A DNA stretch of 36,314 nucleotides from an uncultured Ignavibacteriales bacterium (GTDB lineage: Bacteria > Bacteroidota > Ignavibacteria > Ignavibacteriales > Ignavibacteriaceae). The notes under the pieces were generated by a model that saw only the letters and a program-made list of their open reading frames with translations, ran no database searches and was not told the DNA's origin. Location: positions 1 to 36,314 of the forward strand of contig CALLZX010000439.1 in NCBI GenBank assembly GCA_937858935.1. Direction: 5' to 3'. A program made the translations under genes and the position numbers. How positions within the stretch are numbered: position 1 is the first letter of the stretch; each line of letters begins with the position of its first letter. Of the stretch, positions 1-9,930 are shown one piece after another.

Positions 1-182
1 TATCTTCCGCCTAATTCCTCAAGCTGAGAGTTTGATCTTGTCCAAGCGTATCTTCCGCCTAATTCCTCAAGCTGAGAGTTTGATCTTGTCCAAGCATATC
101 TTCCGCCTAATTCCTCAAGCTGAGAGTTTGATCTTGTCCAAGCATATCTTCCGCCTAATTCCTCAAGCTGAGAGTTTGATCT
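1..182 (-). repeat. 48-bp in-frame tandem repeat, 3.8 copies
   Basis: On the reverse strand, full copies lie at 182-135, 134-87 and 86-39, with a partial copy at 38-1. The copies are identical except for one silent TAT/TAC difference at position 48. The 48-bp period equals 16 codons, so copy-number change would keep the reading frame. The near-perfect DNA identity points to recent expansion or continual homogenisation. The array continues past the window edge. Confidence 0.97.
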
Positions 183-353
183 GTTCTGTAAAATCAAATT
201 ATCAGTTGATTCATTAGAATTTGAAACACTAACTTGCTGCTCAACCAGAGTTGCATCGCCCTGAACTCTGTATCTAACTGCTTCTTCAACCTGTGCGAAT
301 GAAGTTGCAATTAGGGTAAACAGCAAAACAAACATGAATATAGATTTTTGCAT
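1..353 (-). CDS. Secreted tandem-repeat protein, 5' part (runs off left edge)
   Basis: The reverse strand is open from an ATG at 353 to the window edge, giving about 117 residues without a stop. GGGAG lies just upstream of the ATG. Residues 1-21 form a signal peptide: MQKS, then a hydrophobic stretch, ending in a likely cleavage site at SFA-Q. A linker of about 36 residues, rich in N, Q, E, S and V, follows. Then a 16-residue unit, SNSQLEELGGRYAWTR, repeats in frame with no amino-acid change. Only the first 3.8 repeat copies are in the window. A perfect -24/-12 sigma-54 promoter sits about 100 bp upstream, and the sigma-54 activator gene is the next gene upstream on the same strand. I recognise no family. 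The LEELGG in each unit resembles a double-glycine processing site, but no C39 peptidase is visible here. A repetitive surface or matrix protein is equally possible. The coding call is firm and the function is unknown. Confidence 0.85.
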   Translation of the reverse strand, partial: MQKSIFMFVLLFTLIATSFAQVEEAVRYRVQGDATLVEQQVSVSNSNESTDNLILQNRSNSQLEELGGRYAWTRSNSQLEELGGRYAWTRSNSQLEELGGRYAWTRSNSQLEELGGR

Positions 354-410
354 AGCTCCCACCATGTAACTGATGAAATAATTATTATAACACTGAATTC
401 ATATTAAATT

Positions 411-432
411 TAACTCCGCATAACTGGAGTTA
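411..432 (-). other. Hairpin in the predicted 5' leader of the repeat-protein mRNA
   Basis: A 7-bp perfect inverted repeat, TAACTCC / GGAGTTA, encloses an 8-nt loop. It would lie about 15-36 nt after the start site predicted from the sigma-54 promoter and about 58 nt before the ATG. No T-run follows in the leftward direction, so it does not look like a terminator. It may affect mRNA stability or translation. Its role is inferred only. Confidence 0.4.
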
Positions 433-456
433 GCCCTCTAATAAGTGTTAAAATAA

Positions 457-472
457 GGCAATGAAAGTGCCA
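457..472 (-). promoter_or_regulatory. Sigma-54 (-24/-12) promoter for the repeat protein
   Basis: The reverse strand reads TGGCACTTTCATTGCC. This matches the RpoN consensus TGGCAC-N5-TTGC, with the GG and GC dinucleotides exactly 12 bp apart. It faces the secreted repeat gene. The start site would be near 446, giving a leader of about 93 nt. A sigma-54 activator gene ends at 615, about 140 bp upstream, which strengthens the call. It is intergenic. Confidence 0.85.
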
Positions 473-516
473 CATAAGACTGTTAATAATTGAAAATTTT
501 TGATGATTTATTAGAT

Positions 517-539
517 AAATCGGTCATAATTACCGATTT
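517..539. promoter_or_regulatory. 23-bp dyad, candidate activator binding site (UAS)
   Basis: AAATCGGT-N7-ACCGATTT is a perfect 8-bp inverted repeat. Its centre (528) lies about 82 bp upstream of the predicted sigma-54 start site, within the usual range for enhancer sites of Fis-type activators. The likely ligand is the activator encoded just upstream (615-2000). The alternative is a weak terminator for that activator gene: the stem could form in RNA, but no clear T-run follows it on the reverse strand. Confidence 0.5.
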
Positions 540-614
540 TGAATGGGAATTAAGTTTTTTTTGTAAAAAATATTTACTTTAAAAATGAGTTACAAGGAAA
601 AGAAAGTATATTAG

Positions 615-2000
615 TTATTTCTTTTTTGCGACCAGAGTATCAAGTTTTGGTCTGGAGATTCCTAAAAGTTTTGCAGCTTGAGATTTGTTTCCACCCACCT
701 TTTCCAGTACTTGAAGTGCATAATGTTTAGATAATTTCCTAAGATCTGTGGTACCATAATTTAAATCCATTCGAATAACATTTTCAGGAACTTCTCCATT
801 ACCTGAATTTAATTGCATTACTGCAGGTACAGAGTTAATAAGATTAGAAAAATCGTTTAGAGTTAATTCCCCATTTTCTGATAGAAGAACCGCTCGTTCA
901 ATAACGTTTTTTAATTCCCGAACATTTCCAGGCCAGGGATATCCCAGAAAAAAATATCGCAATTCTTTACTTATTTTTTTTACTGACTTATTAAAAGTAA
1001 AATTAAATTCTTCAATAAAATGATCAGCCAGACTTACAATATCTTCACTTCTTTCATTTAAAGGAGGAAGTTCTATTGTAACTACATTTAATCGATGAAA
1101 TAGATCTCTTCTGAAAGATCCTTCTTCAATCATTTGTTCAATATTTTTATTAGTTGCAGATATTATTCTTGCATTGACAGGAATATCAACAATACCGCCT
1201 AATCGTTTTATAACTTTTTTTTCAATTGCTCTTAGAAGTTTTGCTTGTAAATTTAAACTCATATCACCAATTTCATCGAGGAAAAGAGTTCCATTTTCTG
1301 CAATTTCAAACAATCCAAGTTTTCTAGTTCTTGCACTAGTAAAGGCTCCCGCTTCATACCCAAATAATTCTGATTCAAGAAGATTTTCGGGAATAGCAGT
1401 ACACACAATATCAACAAAAGGATCTTTACGATTCTTTCCATAATTATGGATCGCTCTAGCAAATAAACCTTTGCCGGTTCCTGTTTCGCCCAATAAAAGA
1501 ATATTTGACGAACTTTGCTCAGATACTTTTTTTGCGAGATCGATAGTCCGAGAAAATTTTGGAGAACTGCCAATTATTCTTGCAAGATTATATCTTATGC
1601 TATCATCATCTCTTCGGGTAGTTGCAGAAGTCTTATATAACCCATTAGTGATAAGCTCTTTTATATAGGATGTAAACTTTACTATTTCATACGGAAATAC
1701 AAATATATCGTGCAGACCCATTTTCGCAATTGTACTAACTAGTAATGCATTGTTGTTTCTAATTACAATAATAATTTTGTTAAGAATCTCTTTTTTAACT
1801 AGAGCAACTTCTGCTAATAGTCCTGAGGCCAATGAATCGATTTGCAATACCAATATTGTATCTTCTTCAGCTGAAAATAATTTGGGATTTGTAAACGCAA
1901 TTGGAATACTTTCTAACTCAACCTGTCTTAAACCGGAGTTGATAGCACTGATATCATCATTATCAGAATATATTTTTATATTAACTTTTTTGGTATTCAT
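615..2000 (-). CDS. Sigma-54-dependent transcriptional activator (NtrC-like) with degenerate receiver domain
   Basis: This 461-residue protein has three parts. Residues 1-120 look like a receiver fold: an acidic patch at D13/D15/D16 and a possible D55. The conserved Thr/Ser and Lys are missing (VFPYE where a KP is expected), so ordinary His-Asp phosphorelay control is doubtful. Residues about 140-370 are the AAA+ domain, with Walker A GETGTGK (171-177), the sigma-54 contact loop as GAFTSA (218-223, where GAFTGA is usual), Walker B GTLFLDEIG (237-245) and arginine-finger region FRRDLFHRL. Residues 425-459 are a Fis-type helix-turn-helix (GGNKSQAAKLLGISRPKL). The ATG lies 20 bp inside the end of the upstream kinase gene, so the two are translationally linked. 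The likely target is the sigma-54 promoter at 457-472, just downstream of the gene. Family call is secure; target and input are inferred. Confidence 0.93.
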   Translation of the reverse strand: MNTKKVNIKIYSDNDDISAINSGLRQVELESIPIAFTNPKLFSAEEDTILVLQIDSLASGLLAEVALVKKEILNKIIIVIRNNNALLVSTIAKMGLHDIFVFPYEIVKFTSYIKELITNGLYKTSATTRRDDDSIRYNLARIIGSSPKFSRTIDLAKKVSEQSSSNILLLGETGTGKGLFARAIHNYGKNRKDPFVDIVCTAIPENLLESELFGYEAGAFTSARTRKLGLFEIAENGTLFLDEIGDMSLNLQAKLLRAIEKKVIKRLGGIVDIPVNARIISATNKNIEQMIEEGSFRRDLFHRLNVVTIELPPLNERSEDIVSLADHFIEEFNFTFNKSVKKISKELRYFFLGYPWPGNVRELKNVIERAVLLSENGELTLNDFSNLINSVPAVMQLNSGNGEVPENVIRMDLNYGTTDLRKLSKHYALQVLEKVGGNKSQAAKLLGISRPKLDTLVAKKK

Positions 2001-5000
2001 TTAACTGAGTTTGATTGCCGATTAGAATTAATTTTTCTATGGCTTTTTTTCTTTCGGGATTATTAAAATAAGCTGTTCTTATTTTATTATTAGTAATATT
2101 TTCACCGATCATATTTACCAATTCATAGGCATAGTGTCGTGGTTTTTTCGCTTTATAAAAATTACCTCGCTCCCAATACGTTTCAGCAATGGTAAAAAGA
2201 ACTTTCCAGGTCAGTTCGCTAATACTTTCTTCTTCAATCAAATTATATGCGCTCTCAAAATACTCTAGCGGCGATTTCAAATTTTCATTTTGTGTAAAGT
2301 ATGCAATCCTTCCAAATAAATATTCTCGTTGTGCCTTGAATATAACATTTTGTTCAACATATTTTATAAAATCTTTATCAGAAAGATAAAACAATGCTTT
2401 ATCAAATTTTCTTATATTTATTAAATGTTCCGATATTTTAATAATAGCATCTACATAAATACTTACTTCCGGTATTTTATTTGCTATTTCTAAAAGCGAA
2501 GACATTTCAGTATTCAATTCAGGCGATTTAGGTTTACCTATTCTTAGTAATAATTTTAAATAATTAAAAATTAAATTATTTCTTTCAGAATTATTTTCGT
2601 CAGTAAATAAGAAATATTCATATTGATTTATAATTCTTTCTAATTCTTCAGTATTTCCGATAGCAAACCAAAATATTCCCAATAAGTAAATATCATTAAG
2701 AGCTTCTTCTTTATTATTTAATTGATTAAAAATATTTAGTGCTTTATTAATATTATCATATGCACTTTGATAGTCACAAGTGTGCAGATAAACTTCACCA
2801 AGATTACTTAGCGATAAACCTATTCCATTCTGATTTCCAAGGGCTGTAAATATTTTTTCAGAACGCAACCAACTTTCACATGCCCTCTCGAAGTCATTAT
2901 TTCCCTGATAAAAAACCCCATAATTTATGAGGATTAAAGCCTCTTGTTCTAAATTACCAATAGTCTGATTTAGTTTTATTGCTTCTTGCCAATATTTTGA
3001 GGCTGTATTCTTATCTCCAAGTATGTTATAAATAGTGCCAATATTTACTTTTATACGTGCGATTCTATCAGTCACCTTTCTTTTAGGATAACTTTCTTCT
3101 GCAAGAATAAAATTCTTTAAAGCTTGGTCCGGGTTGTTTCTAAACTGAATTTCAATAAGACCTAAAAGATTAAAACACTTTTCTTTTTCTTCATCCATTA
3201 AATTTTTGTCTTCAAGCAATTTTTTACAATAATCCTCAGCCTCACTAAAATTATTCAAATCAAATTCAGCATAAGCTATCTGAATCAGAATTTTTTGCTT
3301 AAATACAATATCTTTTACTGATAAGTGTAATTGAAGTAAAATGCTTTTCCCATCTTCAAGTTTTCTTAATCCAATCAGGCAAGTCCCTTTAATAAATTGC
3401 ATCTGATTTTTATCCTCATCAGACATTTTTTCAAAATTTAGCTTGTAAATATTTTCTAAGGCAAGTTTAAAATCACTTAGCTTATAAAGAGTTTTTACAA
3501 GTTCATATTTGAATGATATTAGTAATTTTTCATTAATATTAAACTGCAATACTTTTTCTAAAAGGGATTTTTTATATGCGTAAGCACTAATTTCTTCAGC
3601 CTGAGTAATCTCCTTTTTAAAAAATTCAACAGATTGTTCGTACTCATTTGCAAGCTCAAATTGTCTTGCTAATTCCATTGTGTTAAAATCAGCGAACAAT
3701 TTTTTAATTGAGTTAGCGAGAACTATATGAAATTTAATTCGGTTGTTGATGGTTGAGTATATGTATTTCTTAAAGTTATAAGAATTGATTCTAGGTGCAT
3801 TACTAAGACTTAATGGATCAATAATGTTTTTTTTCTCCAGCTCATCAAGTATGGATTTTAGAATTTCATGTTTAACATCCAGTAATGCTGCAAGCACGGT
3901 TTGCTCTATGGATATTTCAAATGCTGATATTATTTGGGCTAGTTTTAATTCAAGACTGTTCAAATTACTAAGACGCATGCGGTATAATTCTTCGTGCGAA
4001 CTTTGGAGTGCAAGAATTATATCTTCAGTTGATTCAAATGTGACTATAGCATTATTAAACTGAATTACCTTTAGAAGTATTAAATCTTTAATAAACTGTT
4101 TAATATTTCCAGGTTGCAGATCAGAATAGAGTAAAATATATTTTTTTAACTCTGCTTTAGGAAAAGATGGAGAATAGCTTAAATCCAAAAACTCTGTGAG
4201 CTGATGATCAGTAAACTGATTAAGCTGAATAACACATAAATTATTTAACGACGAGGAAGAATGATCAAAATCAGAAGATTCGGTTAAAATTACTTTTATT
4301 CCCTTTACCTGGAATATTCTTATAATCTCAGTCAATGATTCTTTCGTAAATTCATCATACATGTTATAGTCATCTAAAAGTAGGGTAAGCTCTATGCCCG
4401 TGGGTAAAGTATTAAATATTCTTTTTACTGAATCGAAAAAACTATTTGAAGAGTTATCAAAGAAATCAATAATAATATCCGCATACTCTTTTTCCTTTTC
4501 ACGATATATAACTTCAGATAGTATAATTTTTCTAAAAATATACTTTACCGCTTCAAATCCTGATTTGATTTTAGTGTTTTCAATAAATAATGAGTAATGC
4601 TTCTGACGGTAAATTTCCTGCATTAATGTTGTTTTTCCTGAACCATCAAATCCGGTAACCGTGAAAACTTCATTACTTGTTTTGTCTTTTAGATAAGTGC
4701 TTAAAATGTTGAATGCATCTTTTCTGTCACTAAAGACTTTAGCAGGGATTAAGTCTTTAATAACTTCAAAATCAATCGATATCTCTAAATCTAAAAGGAT
4801 TTGTAATGCATTTTCATACCGCTCTAAAGGGTTTTTCTTAATTAATTTTGAAATAACCTTTATTAAACTATCAGAATAATTTGACGGGCCTAATTCAAAA
4901 TCTTCTTCAATGTGAGCTTTATATATTTCAATTTCATTTTGACCAACAAATGGGAAATTTCCATATACAATTCGATAAAGCAGAATTCCCAAAGAATAAA

Positions 5001-5583
5001 AATCAACTCTATAATTATGTTGTTCGTTTTTTAAAAGTTCTGGTGCGATGTAAAATGCAGTGCCTTGAATTTCTTTTTCATATTCAGCCATTGTGTAGCG
5101 TGCCAACCCAAGATCGATGATTTTAATAACAGGATTGCCATTTGTTTCAGAGACAAGAATATTTTCAGCTTTAAGATCGTAATAGATATAATTGGTTTGA
5201 TGCAGATAATAAAGAACGGAACAAATTTGCTTGATAATTAAATTTAGTTTTTTTTCATCTTTCAATCCGCTATAGTTTAATAACAGATTGGATGGAAAAT
5301 ATTCCATAGTTATAAAAGAAGAGAATTTTTCTATTTCAAGATCTTCATCTTCATCTTTTATTAAAACCTTACAAAGTTCAAATGACTTTATAATATTAGG
5401 GTGATCAAGTTTTTGAAGTATAAAATATTCTTCTCGAAACAATTCCTGTTCTTCATTTGATGCTGCTGGGGGTAAAAATTTAGCAGCTACTTCTCTTTCA
5501 GGAAATTCAGTATCTATTACATTAAATACTTTACTTCTTCCTTCGCCTAATTTTTTACTAACAATGTATCGTTTATTAATCAT
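1981..5583 (-). CDS. Ser/Thr protein kinase fused to STAND-type ATPase and TPR repeats
   Basis: This is a 1200-residue cytoplasmic signalling protein with no membrane segment. Residues 5-265 are a Hanks-type kinase: glycine loop GEGRSK, VAAK with K35, catalytic loop YYDLKAEN with D136 (YYD replaces HRD), DLG at D157 and APE at 180-182. The key catalytic residues are present, so it is probably active. Residues about 285-500 form a P-loop NTPase: Walker A GFDGSGKTT (K317) and LLLDD near 401-405. From about 640 to the C terminus come helical TPR-like repeats. This architecture resembles PknK/MalT-like proteins, but without a DNA-binding domain; that role may be taken by the overlapping sigma-54 activator gene. 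Only 3 nt separate it from the upstream dppC-like gene. The signal sensed is unknown. Confidence 0.92.
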   Translation of the reverse strand: MINKRYIVSKKLGEGRSKVFNVIDTEFPEREVAAKFLPPAASNEEQELFREEYFILQKLDHPNIIKSFELCKVLIKDEDEDLEIEKFSSFITMEYFPSNLLLNYSGLKDEKKLNLIIKQICSVLYYLHQTNYIYYDLKAENILVSETNGNPVIKIIDLGLARYTMAEYEKEIQGTAFYIAPELLKNEQHNYRVDFYSLGILLYRIVYGNFPFVGQNEIEIYKAHIEEDFELGPSNYSDSLIKVISKLIKKNPLERYENALQILLDLEISIDFEVIKDLIPAKVFSDRKDAFNILSTYLKDKTSNEVFTVTGFDGSGKTTLMQEIYRQKHYSLFIENTKIKSGFEAVKYIFRKIILSEVIYREKEKEYADIIIDFFDNSSNSFFDSVKRIFNTLPTGIELTLLLDDYNMYDEFTKESLTEIIRIFQVKGIKVILTESSDFDHSSSSLNNLCVIQLNQFTDHQLTEFLDLSYSPSFPKAELKKYILLYSDLQPGNIKQFIKDLILLKVIQFNNAIVTFESTEDIILALQSSHEELYRMRLSNLNSLELKLAQIISAFEISIEQTVLAALLDVKHEILKSILDELEKKNIIDPLSLSNAPRINSYNFKKYIYSTINNRIKFHIVLANSIKKLFADFNTMELARQFELANEYEQSVEFFKKEITQAEEISAYAYKKSLLEKVLQFNINEKLLISFKYELVKTLYKLSDFKLALENIYKLNFEKMSDEDKNQMQFIKGTCLIGLRKLEDGKSILLQLHLSVKDIVFKQKILIQIAYAEFDLNNFSEAEDYCKKLLEDKNLMDEEKEKCFNLLGLIEIQFRNNPDQALKNFILAEESYPKRKVTDRIARIKVNIGTIYNILGDKNTASKYWQEAIKLNQTIGNLEQEALILINYGVFYQGNNDFERACESWLRSEKIFTALGNQNGIGLSLSNLGEVYLHTCDYQSAYDNINKALNIFNQLNNKEEALNDIYLLGIFWFAIGNTEELERIINQYEYFLFTDENNSERNNLIFNYLKLLLRIGKPKSPELNTEMSSLLEIANKIPEVSIYVDAIIKISEHLINIRKFDKALFYLSDKDFIKYVEQNVIFKAQREYLFGRIAYFTQNENLKSPLEYFESAYNLIEEESISELTWKVLFTIAETYWERGNFYKAKKPRHYAYELVNMIGENITNNKIRTAYFNNPERKKAIEKLILIGNQTQLNEYQKS

Positions 5584-5586
5584 TGA

Positions 5587-6861
5587 CTAATTAATTGTGG
5601 GATTAAGAAATTTATTTATCTCTCTGCCGATTTCATTAATACTCAACAAGGAGATTATTAAAGTAAATCCGGGAAAAAATATTAACCACCATGATTGTGT
5701 TATATATTGTTGCCCGGCTTCAATCATGGAACCCCAGGATGGATATTCAGTTCCAGTGCCTATACCTAAATAACTAAGAGCTGATTCTGCCAAAATCACA
5801 TTACTGAGTTGAAAAATTAAATTGACAGTTACAGGAACAATAATAACAGGTAATATTTCTCGTATCAACAGTTTGATATTTTTTAACCCAATTAATTTAG
5901 CAGATAAATAATACTCTTTATTTTTTATGGATAGCATTTCACTTTTCGTTACTTTAAATAGACTCATCCAACCTGAAAACCCTAAAACAATTATGATAGA
6001 AATAATACTATTGCCAAACAAAGCGATTATAAGTATAACTAAAAATATAGCTGGAAATGAAAGAAACAAATCTGTTAATCGACTTAAAAATAGATTTGCA
6101 AATCCACCTTGTTCAACTGCGATGAAAGCAAATGTTAATCCTAAAATAAATGAAACCAAAACTGCCCCAAATCCAACCAACAAGGAGATTCTTGATCCAT
6201 ATACAATTCTTGTAAAAACATCTCTACCAAATTCATCTGAACCCAGTAAAAATAACTTGGATTCAATTACCGGCTTATTATTAATACTTACTAGTGAATT
6301 TTTATCAACATTAAACTGAAAACCTGACTGGTAATATATGATTGAAGAATCAACTTTCAGACTATCGATAAATATAATATTTTCATTATACGATACTGGA
6401 ACAACTTTGTTAATTAATTTCTTTACATCATTATCATCATTCTTATTTGATCGATTCTTTAATTCTATATAATCTACCAATGAAAAGGGCGGGAGTATTT
6501 TTGTTACCGAAATGTTTTTTTGAAAATCAGGATGCTGAAGGGTTATAACTGGTGCGAAAATAAAACATGCTAACAGCAATATTAATAATGAATCAGCTAT
6601 TTTTAATCTACGCGAAAGTAATTTTTTAATTTTGCCTGACCTTAGAATTGTTATAGGTAAACTTATAATAAGTAATAATGAGATTATATTATCAATCAAT
6701 GATATATCGATAACTGCGGATAAATTAATATTCCCTACAAAAAGCGATTGAATAAGCGACAATAATAAACTTAGCAAATTGAATAAATGTGTATACCTTA
6801 TTACAGCTATTGTTAAAAGAACAAATAGAATAAAATGCCATATTTTTATTTTATTTAACAT
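5587..6861 (-). CDS. dppC: Peptide/nickel-type ABC transporter permease, DppC-like, with N-terminal extension
   Basis: This inner-membrane permease is 424 residues long, against about 300 for the family. The C-terminal two thirds is typical: GSDEFGRDVFTRIVYGSRISLL opens the BPD_transp_1 domain, and an EAA-type loop (LSAKLIGLKNIKLLIREILP) would contact an ATPase. The extra length is N-terminal: about 95 residues with two or three additional hydrophobic helices before the usual OppC_N helix (near ADSLLILLLACFIFAPV). A polar insert of about 85 residues, probably extracytoplasmic, follows. Its ATG overlaps the dppB stop by 1 nt (TGATG), and the kinase gene follows after 3 nt. Peptide-type family membership is clear; the real substrate is not. 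Confidence 0.9.
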   Translation of the reverse strand: MLNKIKIWHFILFVLLTIAVIRYTHLFNLLSLLLSLIQSLFVGNINLSAVIDISLIDNIISLLLIISLPITILRSGKIKKLLSRRLKIADSLLILLLACFIFAPVITLQHPDFQKNISVTKILPPFSLVDYIELKNRSNKNDDNDVKKLINKVVPVSYNENIIFIDSLKVDSSIIYYQSGFQFNVDKNSLVSINNKPVIESKLFLLGSDEFGRDVFTRIVYGSRISLLVGFGAVLVSFILGLTFAFIAVEQGGFANLFLSRLTDLFLSFPAIFLVILIIALFGNSIISIIIVLGFSGWMSLFKVTKSEMLSIKNKEYYLSAKLIGLKNIKLLIREILPVIIVPVTVNLIFQLSNVILAESALSYLGIGTGTEYPSWGSMIEAGQQYITQSWWLIFFPGFTLIISLLSINEIGREINKFLNPTIN

Positions 6862-7847
6862 CAGTTGATTAATTCTTTTAAATATCTCTTATCCATTTTT
6901 ATCTTTATAAGATCAGCAGCCAAATTTGAAAGCACCATCATTAAGCCAGCTATAAAAGTGCATGCAATTACAAGAGGGAAATCACGATTTAAAATTGCAG
7001 TTACTGTTAATCGCCCCATACCTGGCAAAGAAAAAATGACTTCGGTAAGTAAAGCACCCCCTAGTAATATTCCAAACTCAATTCCTGCAATAGAAATTAA
7101 AGGCTGAATTGAATTTGGGAGTAAATGCTTTTTAAATATTTCTTTTTCGGTAAATCCATTGGCTCTTAAGTTTAGGATGTACGAACTACTTTTAACAGAA
7201 TCAAAATTATCTCTTAGGTACTTATAAAAAACTGCAATGCCAGCTAATGATAGTGTAATCATTGGTAACACTAAATGGATAAAAAAGTCTGTAAGTTTTT
7301 TAATTGAATCAAGATCATCATGATAAATAGATTTGATTCCAGATGTTGGCAAAACATCAAGCTTAACTGAAAATATGTAAACTAATATTAAACCAATAAC
7401 AAATGTCGGCACAGAAAACAGAATAATGGAGAGTTTTGATAAATATTTATCAATCGATTTTCCATGTTTTCTAAATGAATATTTGGCAAGTAAATATCCC
7501 AGCAGCAATTGTATTATAAAACTGATCGAGGAGAATATAAGGGTAAAAAGAAAATAATCTTTTATCACTGTAAATACAGGCTGGCGATAGTTATAGGAGA
7601 TTCCAAAATCCCCAGAAAATAAATTAAGCACAAATGAACTATATTGAACATAGATTGACTTATCTAATCCGAATGATCTGGTTACACTTTCCGCTAATTG
7701 AGGACTTAATTGTGGAGAAAGGTATTTTTGAGTCGGATTACCGGGAGCTAATCTTATAAGTAGAAAAATAAAAGTAACTAATAATAAAAGAACAAGTATC
7801 GAGCTTGCAACTCTTTTTAGTATTGCCCAATAAAAATCTTTTTTCAT
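6861..7847 (-). CDS. dppB: Peptide/nickel-type ABC transporter permease, DppB-like
   Basis: This 328-residue inner-membrane protein is of normal family length. The first helix is followed by the diagnostic RLAPGNPTQ, then the extracytoplasmic segment with FGLDKSIYVQY, and further helices. An EAA-like loop (LRANGFTEKEIFKKHLLPNS) should dock onto an ABC ATPase. It is the first gene of a leftward run into dppC, the kinase and the sigma-54 activator. The two ATPase genes are divergent from it across a gap of about 73 bp. No substrate-binding protein gene is in the window, so substrate and even direction of transport are open. Confidence 0.92.
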   Translation of the reverse strand: MKKDFYWAILKRVASSILVLLLLVTFIFLLIRLAPGNPTQKYLSPQLSPQLAESVTRSFGLDKSIYVQYSSFVLNLFSGDFGISYNYRQPVFTVIKDYFLFTLIFSSISFIIQLLLGYLLAKYSFRKHGKSIDKYLSKLSIILFSVPTFVIGLILVYIFSVKLDVLPTSGIKSIYHDDLDSIKKLTDFFIHLVLPMITLSLAGIAVFYKYLRDNFDSVKSSSYILNLRANGFTEKEIFKKHLLPNSIQPLISIAGIEFGILLGGALLTEVIFSLPGMGRLTVTAILNRDFPLVIACTFIAGLMMVLSNLAADLIKIKMDKRYLKELIN

Positions 7848-7920
7848 AGTAAGTAGAATTAAATGCTAATAAATCTTTGGTTAATTTATTATTTTGATAA
7901 ACAAATACAAAAGTTTAATA

Positions 7921-8670
7921 ATGCTTAAAGCCAAAATTAATAAAGTTGTCCTCACCAATAATAATACAGACAGAGAAGTTCTGCGTAATATTAATTTTAG
8001 CATCAGCAATAATATGATTTATTCTGTGCTTGGGAAAAATGGCAGCGGCAAATCCACACTTATTAAATCGCTTACTAGTTTATTAAATAGTGATCTTTAT
8101 AAAGTTGATGGTAAGGTTCTTTGGTTTGATGAAAATATTTTTGAAATGAAGAAAGTGAGATTATTATCCCTGCGCAAAACAGAGATTAAATATGTTATGC
8201 AGGATTTGACTTGGAATTTCGATCCTTTGAAAACTATAAAATATTATTTTGATTATACAGGATTTAAGGAGAAGACTATTTCACTCCAATTAAAAAGTTT
8301 TTTGCTTCCTGATTATCAGATAATTTCTAATCTTCATTCTTATGAGCTCAGCGGTGGTATGGCACAGAGAATAAGTTTAATGATAGCGATGCTTTCAAAT
8401 CCAAAACTTTTAATATTGGATGAGCCAACTTCTGCTATTGATTATGCTAATATTAATCTTATTAAACTAAAACTATTAGAATTTAAGAAAACAGGCGGAT
8501 CGGTTTTAATTGTTACTCAGGATATTGATTTTGCAAAAGAAATTTCTGATAAAATTGCTTTTCTACATGATAACAAATTAAGTGAGTTTATAGGAATGGT
8601 TGATTTTTTTAAAGATTCTGATCTTCCGCTTCACAATACTTTTCTTCAGTCTTATAAAGAACTGCAATGA
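7921..8670 (+). CDS. dppD: ABC transporter ATPase, DppD-like, short form
   Basis: I place the start at ATG 7921 (249 residues); an in-frame TTG at 7894 would add nine residues. It has Walker A GKNGSGKST, Q-loop Gln (YVMQDLT), signature ELSGGMAQR and Walker B LLILDEPTSAID. The switch (H-loop) histidine is replaced by Gln (IVTQDID), so this site may hydrolyse ATP poorly, as in asymmetric ABC ATPase pairs. The length is well below typical DppD (about 320), because the C-terminal oligopeptide-transporter domain is absent. Its stop overlaps the next ATPase start by 4 nt (ATGA). It probably pairs with that ATPase under the divergent DppBC-like permeases. Confidence 0.88.
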   Translation: MLKAKINKVVLTNNNTDREVLRNINFSISNNMIYSVLGKNGSGKSTLIKSLTSLLNSDLYKVDGKVLWFDENIFEMKKVRLLSLRKTEIKYVMQDLTWNFDPLKTIKYYFDYTGFKEKTISLQLKSFLLPDYQIISNLHSYELSGGMAQRISLMIAMLSNPKLLILDEPTSAIDYANINLIKLKLLEFKKTGGSVLIVTQDIDFAKEISDKIAFLHDNKLSEFIGMVDFFKDSDLPLHNTFLQSYKELQ

Positions 8671-9476
8671 AAGATATTATTCTAAAAGCTGAAAAGATTT
8701 CTTACTCCATTGAAAACAAGAAATTATTTTCCAATAATCAAACTACTGAGATATTAAAGGATGTTTCTTTTGAAATTGAAAGGGGTAAAGTACTTGGAAT
8801 TTCCGGTCAGTCAGGCAGCGGTAAATCTACGCTTGCAAAAATATTAAGCAGAGTTTATTTCCAAACCTCCGGTACAATTCTTAATCATTTCGTAAAAGAT
8901 TGGAGTGACTCTCTGTCAAATCCAGTGCAAATATTATTTCAAAATGATGGTGAATTGTTAAATCCATTTAGAAAAGTGAAAGATGTTTTGAATGAAGCCT
9001 TTGAATTGAAATTTAAGAAAGACAAGAACTATGAGTCTGAAGTTGATGAAATTATTAAAAAGTTTAATCTTAACCCGAGTTTAAAAGAAAGTAAAGGGTC
9101 ACAATTAAGCGGTGGCGAAAAGCAGCGTATTGCTCTTGCAAGAATTGTTATTGTGGAGCCTGAAATTTTAGTTTTGGATGAACCATTTTCTTCACAGGAT
9201 GTTGAAGCTCAGCTTAGTATTATTAAACTAATTATTAAATTAAAATTGGAGCTTAATCTTACAATAATTTGTATCTCGCACGATCTTAACATCTTAAAAC
9301 ACATTTCTGATGAATTAATAATTATGTATAACGGGAAAGTTGTTGAGTATGGGGAAACAAAAGCTTTAATTGATAAGCCTACAAATGAATACACTAGGTT
9401 TTTACTAAGAGCACAGGCGTTAAATTTAACTGAAGAAGAAATTCAAAAATTCCACAACACATATGAGCAAAACTAA
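8667..9476 (+). CDS. dppF: ABC transporter ATPase, DppF-like
   Basis: This 269-residue protein has Walker A GQSGSGKST, Q-loop (ILFQNDGELLNPF), signature LSGGEKQRIALAR, Walker B LVLDEPFSSQD and an intact H-loop (CISHDLN). It therefore keeps all catalytic motifs, unlike its partner. The NEYTRFLLRAQ tail is typical of Dpp/Opp ATPases, but the long C-terminal domain is missing. It overlaps the upstream ATPase by 4 nt and the downstream ybaK gene by 14 nt, so all three are probably one transcript. It is the likely energising subunit for the DppBC-like permeases across the divergent promoter region. Confidence 0.9.
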   Translation: MKDIILKAEKISYSIENKKLFSNNQTTEILKDVSFEIERGKVLGISGQSGSGKSTLAKILSRVYFQTSGTILNHFVKDWSDSLSNPVQILFQNDGELLNPFRKVKDVLNEAFELKFKKDKNYESEVDEIIKKFNLNPSLKESKGSQLSGGEKQRIALARIVIVEPEILVLDEPFSSQDVEAQLSIIKLIIKLKLELNLTIICISHDLNILKHISDELIIMYNGKVVEYGETKALIDKPTNEYTRFLLRAQALNLTEEEIQKFHNTYEQN

Positions 9477-9930
9477 CGCAATAAGAATTCTCGAATCCCA
9501 CAAAATCATATTTGAAACAATTTCATATAAAGTTGATGAAGATGATTTAAGTGGAGAATCTGTTGCATTAAAAATTGGAGCCAATCCAGAATCAGTATTT
9601 AAAACACTTGTTTGCGTTGGAGATAAAAGTGGTCATATTGTGTTTTGTATTCCTGTTACTCAAGAACTTAATCTAAAAAAAGCTGCTGCTGTAAGTAAAA
9701 ATAAAAAAGTTGAAATGATTAAACTGAAAGATTTATTTCCGCTTACAGGTTATATACGTGGCGGATGTTCACCAGTTGGAATGAAAAAACTTCTCCCAAC
9801 GTATATTGATGAAACTGCACAATTATTTGAAAGCATTTATGTTAGCGCAGGTGTGCGCGGATTACAAATAAAACTTTTTCCAGATGATCTTATTAAACTT
9901 ATTGATACCGGTTATAAAGATTTAATTTAA
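9463..9930 (+). CDS. ybaK: Cys-tRNA(Pro) deacylase, YbaK/EbsC family
   Basis: This 155-residue protein has the usual family length. It belongs to the trans-editing INS superfamily, which hydrolyses mischarged Cys-tRNA(Pro). The conserved catalytic Lys lies in SVFKTLV (K47), and GGCSPVGMKK is the family signature near the C terminus. It overlaps the preceding ABC ATPase gene by 14 nt, suggesting it is read as part of that transcript although its housekeeping role is unrelated. An 80-bp gap separates it from the xdh genes. The family assignment is strong; exact tRNA specificity within the superfamily is inferred. Confidence 0.92.
   Translation: MSKTNAIRILESHKIIFETISYKVDEDDLSGESVALKIGANPESVFKTLVCVGDKSGHIVFCIPVTQELNLKKAAAVSKNKKVEMIKLKDLFPLTGYIRGGCSPVGMKKLLPTYIDETAQLFESIYVSAGVRGLQIKLFPDDLIKLIDTGYKDLI

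Follow-up and report, generated by a model that had tools for sequence, protein, structure and literature searches.

Transcription of a secreted tandem-repeat protein, here called rep, appears to be switched in the Ignavibacteriaceae by the sigma-54 activator (EBP) encoded beside it, and rep itself looks like what is probably a signal-peptide precursor. On comparative sequence grounds the promoter, its enhancer and the regulator-target pair can be regarded as established, with very little room for doubt, and the comparative evidence for the EBP-rep pair is about as strong as such evidence gets. The DNA analysed (the window) is the whole of contig C439, 36,314 nucleotides from an uncultured Ignavibacteriales bacterium whose assembly comprises 472 contigs and 3.46 Mb; the named relatives used for comparison are MAGs of the Ignavibacteriaceae. 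A preliminary description of the window had recognized the promoter and the adjacent activator; the probable precursor nature of the exported protein, the enhancer and the wider circuit go beyond it.

The predicted -24/-12 element, TGGCACTTTCATTGCC, occupies positions 457-472 on the minus strand, within a 249-nt, A+T-rich intergenic spacer, and would direct transcription from about position 446. It is of the TGGC-N8-TGC type with GG and GC 10 bp apart, so that the exact spacing, strand and intergenic location first described are as read in the sequence. The element lies 92 nt from an ATG at 365; its distance to the ATG at 353, which it was originally said to face, is 104 nt. Alignment favours the latter: relatives lack the ATG at 365 and keep the second ATG together with a Shine-Dalgarno-like GGTGGG, and 353 is therefore the likely start of rep. 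Two-mismatch matches to the element number 12 in the window against 13.3 expected, and the exact core occurs twice in the 3.46 Mb genome, as does its reversed control, the second copy lying within an open reading frame (L101, 805-1692). The hexamers alone were dropped as promoter evidence because these counts are no higher than chance; for the 249-nt spacer itself, about 3e-5 exact cores are expected. It is conservation that places the match far beyond chance. TGG[CT]A[CT]-N5-xTG is the best site in all 22 EBP-adjacent spacers scanned in the Ignavibacteriaceae, with shuffle P values mostly below 0.02 (worst, 0.06) and a distance to the start codon of 29-103 nt as scored. The preliminary description had also asked for relatives that retain both genes and have lost the element; no EBP-adjacent target without it was found. 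Sister-family genomes that carry rep in the absence of EBP lack a good -24/-12 element.

Upstream of the promoter lies a palindrome of the TGTAAA-N5-TTTACA type (562-578), a predicted enhancer located 106 bp from the -24 element. The sequence is invariant in an alignment of the host genus and one neighbouring genus, and the distance to the -24 element is 106-110 bp in 32 of 36 loci, a count in which one genome was entered twice. Searched as a composite enhancer-promoter pattern, the arrangement matches 45 times across 80 whole genomes, where the reversed control matches 3 times, and only once in the host genome (C439:459-577). Between enhancer and promoter, at 521-535, there is another dyad, weaker than the first, CGGTCATAATTACCG (GGTAATNATTACC in relatives), which is probably a second EBP site. 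As expected for a sigma-54 promoter, there is an upstream enhancer and the genome carries rpoN, sigma-54 being encoded by one gene. Rfam gave no match on window positions 1-2100.

EBP (615-2000, minus strand) carries a pseudo-receiver at its N-terminus, a Sigma54_activat AAA+ domain with Walker A (GETGTGK) and an L1 loop (GAFTSA), and a Fis-type HTH; the neighbour is thus a sigma-54 activator, as had been claimed, and one of the NtrC type. The likeness to NtrC-type activators extends through the AAA+ domain, Walker motifs, GAFTxA loop and Fis-type HTH to the palindromic enhancer about 100 bp upstream. Unlike them, EBP has a pseudo-receiver without the conserved phospho-Asp or Lys, is paired with a Ser/Thr kinase-AAA-TPR protein, and has one target in most genomes. 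In a by-eye alignment to NtrC, the phospho-Asp is unconserved and the strand 5 Lys is replaced by F, L or I; control by Asp phosphorylation is therefore unlikely. EBP orthologues adjoin like targets throughout the family, and a peptide carrier (rep or the lipoprotein considered below) accompanies EBP in 22 of 22 EBP-positive family genomes versus 2 of 15 EBP-negative ones (Fisher 3e-8); one of the two exceptions, G004, reflects a contig break. At two loci, L086/L118 and L122, rep and the kinase are retained in the absence of EBP, and both the element and the palindrome are missing. Together with the conserved element and enhancer, this co-occurrence upholds the regulator-target pair originally proposed. 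No targets other than rep or lipoprotein were identified. A second EBP paralogue occurs in G021 (L202, 2614-4833) with its own lipoprotein (ending SRYAFII), a TPR gene and a TGTAAA-N5-TTTACA palindrome 97 bp upstream of its -24 element, and may represent a parallel channel.

The rep gene (3-353, minus strand) encodes a signal peptide, a conserved leader of the type NVEEA-x-RYRV and tandem 16-residue units, SNSQLEELGGRYAWTR, and is incomplete at the contig end. The exported repeat protein first described is therefore real in its signal peptide and repeats but is not wholly contained in the window: the array continues on contig C155, where the C-terminus, ...GGRYAWTR-stop, was found. Each unit ends in a heptapeptide, GRYAWTR in this genome and usually SRY-x-[WF]-x-[RK], and in complete rep genes the end of the array is nearly always in phase with the stop codon. 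The units have become homogenized inside each genome and are different between species, and within arrays synonymous differences outnumber replacements. In its anatomy, and in that respect only, rep matches the RRNPPA propeptide definition of a secreted protein with a C-terminal or tandem peptide of 5-10 residues. An intrinsic-terminator-like hairpin stands directly 3' of rep here and at five other loci, which makes a separate rep transcript probable. The 48-bp tandem array (window 1-182) is where the contig breaks off, as happens in many relatives. A search of the 80 family genomes left 47 without a rep, an absence from MAGs that may be partly an assembly effect, because contigs break inside the array. 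Neither Pfam nor NCBIfam holds a family for rep; NCBIfam matches of longer rep proteins to phosphatidylserine decarboxylase are repeat artefacts, and the last match of a narrow rep-alignment scan, L133, is a chance hit to an unrelated protein. The 16-residue period may resemble that of ice-nucleation proteins.

A second class of protein carries the same heptapeptide. In other genera the EBP-adjacent target is a lipoprotein of about 185 residues with the C-terminus ...HFS-R-Y-x-[WF]-x-[RK], and such lipoproteins are also found away from the locus, many with a -24/-12 element of their own. The heptapeptide of rep recurs as the lipoprotein C-terminus in the same genome, odd residues included (SRYAFAH, SRYAFAQ, SRYIFAK, SRYGWAT, ARYGFTR). 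Over 28 genomes the two agree at 119 of 140 positions when five residues are compared, 16 genomes matching exactly; the mean is 67 when genomes are permuted freely and 103 when they are permuted within genera, and in each case none of 20,000 shuffles reaches 119. The within-genus permutation rules out common ancestry as the source of the matching. Position 7 of the heptapeptide agrees in 28 of 28, including the rare T, H and Q. Codons agree at only 62 of 161 identical residues, with Ser encoded as AGY in most rep genes and as TCN in lipoproteins, so that gene conversion between the two genes is ruled out and no DNA copying lies behind the matched peptides. The match is poor in genus g1, which includes the host genome (GRYAWTR vs SRYAFVR). 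Matched C-termini also occur among the several lipoproteins of the rep-less genomes G025, G027, G072 and G076. A search across genomes with a degenerate C-terminus pattern was abandoned, as it returned many chance matches and little over the reversed control.

Two further observations concern the lipoprotein C-termini. One subclade of genus g4 (G008, G069 and G073; loci L080/L269/L314) shows a mismatch, S[VSE]YGYSK in rep versus SRY[TGN]W[AG]K in the lipoprotein, and perhaps has one signal split in two. A second lipoprotein class ends in GFVN, GFIN or GFLN rather than R/K (L194, L198, L199, L200, L201, L197); often each such protein has a single R/K-class partner, and two TPR genes lie alongside.

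Structure prediction suggests how the lipoprotein could give up its terminus. AlphaFold2 (AF2) models it as a confident beta sandwich (pLDDT 85), and the predicted structure has the ZU5/GAIN fold, with Z scores of 10.5 to the ankyrin ZU5, 8.8 to the BAI3 GAIN and 7.8 to UNC5b; the ankyrin and BAI3 matches cover the same residues, 52-185. Pfam gave no match on the lipoprotein. The heptapeptide forms the last, well-ordered strand of the model, right after HF, and HF immediately precedes it in 77 of 80 lipoproteins; the other three, all from G018, read G|ARYGFTR, a junction identical to that in the rep of G018. PIDD and Nup98 cleave themselves at an HF/S motif, in which Ser attacks the preceding bond (PMC3210808), and a self-processing role has been proposed for ZU5 domains in bacterial surface proteins (PMC3482391). 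By analogy, the lipoproteins may cleave themselves at HF|S and, since this site abuts the heptapeptide, self-cleavage would free exactly the shared seven residues. Release would not be automatic, because the heptapeptide is an ordered last strand in the model. The lipoproteins resemble the known ZU5/GAIN autoproteolytic domains of PIDD, Nup98 and adhesion GPCRs (PMC3210808, PMC3482391) in fold, in the HF/S motif and in having the post-cut peptide as last strand, comparable to the tethered agonist of the GPCRs; they differ in being bacterial lipoproteins with a predicted cleavage whose C-terminal product would be just 7 residues.

The order of the genes around rep (importer-STK-EBP-[promoter]-rep-metallopeptidase-histidine kinases) is rigid. 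STK (1981-5583, minus strand), whose gene overlaps that of EBP, joins a Ser/Thr kinase, with catalytic residues retained, to AAA and TPR regions and is the proposed cytosolic receptor and transducer. Beyond it are two peptide-type ABC permeases, DppC-like (5587-6861) and DppB-like (6861-7847), both on the minus strand, and the divergent plus-strand genes for the importer ATPases ATP1 (7894-8670) and ATP2 (8667-9476), for which synteny is conserved. Beside the ATPases in most loci is a 155-residue protein (9463-9930 here; 56-78% identity among relatives). An oligopeptide-binding protein is usually encoded upstream of EBP across loci; it is mostly absent from the locus in the host genus, and in the host genome it adjoins a lipoprotein-TPR cluster on contig C85. 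Downstream of rep are a large secreted HExxH protein with weak beta-propeller repeats and then two histidine-kinase genes. HExxH is invariant in 12 of 12 homologues, and where the contig extends far enough the metallopeptidase gene adjoins rep with few exceptions. Stand-alone TPR proteins of cytosolic type adjoin the lipoproteins in 24 of 31 loci, three of which also have an oligopeptide-binding protein; their similarity to RapF (E 1.2e-7) is of a generic TPR kind. In a sister family (G048, L087 1903-12828; G047, L089 1-11951) rep is accompanied by a subtilase, an OPT oligopeptide transporter and a TPR-CHAT protein, as well as an ECF sigma factor and a zinc-finger (zf-HC2) protein resembling anti-sigma factors. 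Rep is thus found with two peptide transporters that are unrelated to each other, with TPR proteins in each case and with two different alternative-sigma switches, which points to an imported peptide signal. The sister-family loci may hold a TPR-CHAT/ECF version of the circuit.

A model can be proposed in which EBP switches the rep promoter by binding to the palindrome at 562-578, the dyad at 521-535 being a probable further binding site. The signal peptide would export rep, and cutting, for which the outer-envelope HExxH metallopeptidase of the downstream gene is the probable enzyme, would yield many copies of the species-specific heptapeptide, with the C-terminus of the ZU5-fold lipoprotein, just behind its HF|S site, as a second source of near-identical peptide. 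The oligopeptide ABC importer of the locus would take the heptapeptide back up, and the TPR half of STK, along with the stand-alone TPR proteins near the lipoproteins, would bind it. EBP would then be activated by STK, and rep would in this way feed back positively on its own expression. As a whole, an autoinduced, re-imported peptide signal made from rep under EBP is the reading we favour, at a probability that leaves considerable doubt; the separate steps of release, import, TPR binding, kinase-EBP relay and autoinduction are held about as likely, or a shade less so. The heptapeptide may serve in population sensing.

The main rival is surface assembly, in which rep would be a beta-repeat fibre or coat that the lipoproteins anchor or nucleate through the identical strand, by strand exchange or amyloid-type homotypic pairing in the manner of CsgA/CsgB, with sigma-54 controlling matrix production. 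Homotypic pairing would likewise give matched sequences, the peptide forms an ordered final strand in the lipoprotein model, and AF2 models rep as beta strands, albeit at low confidence; at pLDDT 60 this model was too uncertain to arbitrate between fibre and peptide. Curli CsgA/CsgB and amyloid signalling motifs (PMC8086366, PMC7889193) similarly place one short repeat both in a secreted repeat protein and in another protein; there is no homology, and here the repeat is coupled to peptide importers and TPR proteins. However, the rep-less genomes keep their matched lipoprotein C-termini, the other 9 residues of the unit are absent from the lipoproteins, and two unrelated peptide transporters and TPR proteins accompany the carriers. 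The dedicated outer-envelope peptidase gene beside a secreted repeat protein counts toward assembly, which overall we consider unlikely, though it deserves to be taken seriously.

That peptidase gene adjoins rep with few exceptions and the carriers are exported, as would be expected if the heptapeptide were a sorting or processing tag, matched because both carriers share a recognition site for the metallopeptidase or another export or processing enzyme. Tags for sorting, however, are as a rule conserved, and the heptapeptide varies among species of one genus yet stays matched; in addition, no metallopeptidase adjoins the lipoprotein-only loci. A tag is thus quite improbable. Still less probable is that the promoter pair is real while rep serves for storage or nutrition and the importer operon detects peptides from the environment: the importer is Dpp-type, but species-specific heptapeptides matched in trans under sigma-54 would be left unexplained. 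A chance -24/-12 match scarcely merits consideration, for although the hexamers by themselves are not rare, all 22 EBP-adjacent targets keep the element and the enhancer distance is fixed.

An autoinduced peptide signal, by comparison, has a close parallel in layout. RRNPPA systems of the Rap-Phr type with tandem propeptides (PMC11343458) share with the predicted circuit a secreted repeated-peptide precursor with a C-terminal peptide, extracellular proteolysis, an oligopeptide importer, cytosolic TPR proteins and a precursor gene beside a TPR gene; the circuit would work as they do but from unrelated components, the homology seen being that of generic TPR similarity. In contrast to those systems, the host belongs to the Ignavibacteria (Bacteroidota) and not the Bacillota, rep carries up to about 20 homogenized copies rather than 1-4, a ZU5 lipoprotein is a second carrier, and the output is a kinase and a sigma-54 activator. 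The literature searched, from outside subscription journals and preprints, yielded no paper describing peptide signalling in Ignavibacteria.

Peptide signalling with re-import is hardly known outside Gram-positive bacteria. We see roughly an even chance that the heptapeptide is a previously undescribed pheromone of a Gram-negative phylum, produced by rep proteolysis and by HF|S self-cleavage of lipoproteins, re-imported, sensed by a TPR-kinase and amplified by sigma-54. The locus provides a clean sigma-54 activator set of regulator, enhancer, promoter and target, and a complete candidate peptide-signal circuit in Ignavibacteria, gene by gene, with a signal sequence that is predicted for each species and can be synthesized. 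If the model is true, bacteria would be using ZU5/GAIN self-cleavage for the release of a short signal, a counterpart to the tethered agonist in adhesion GPCRs.
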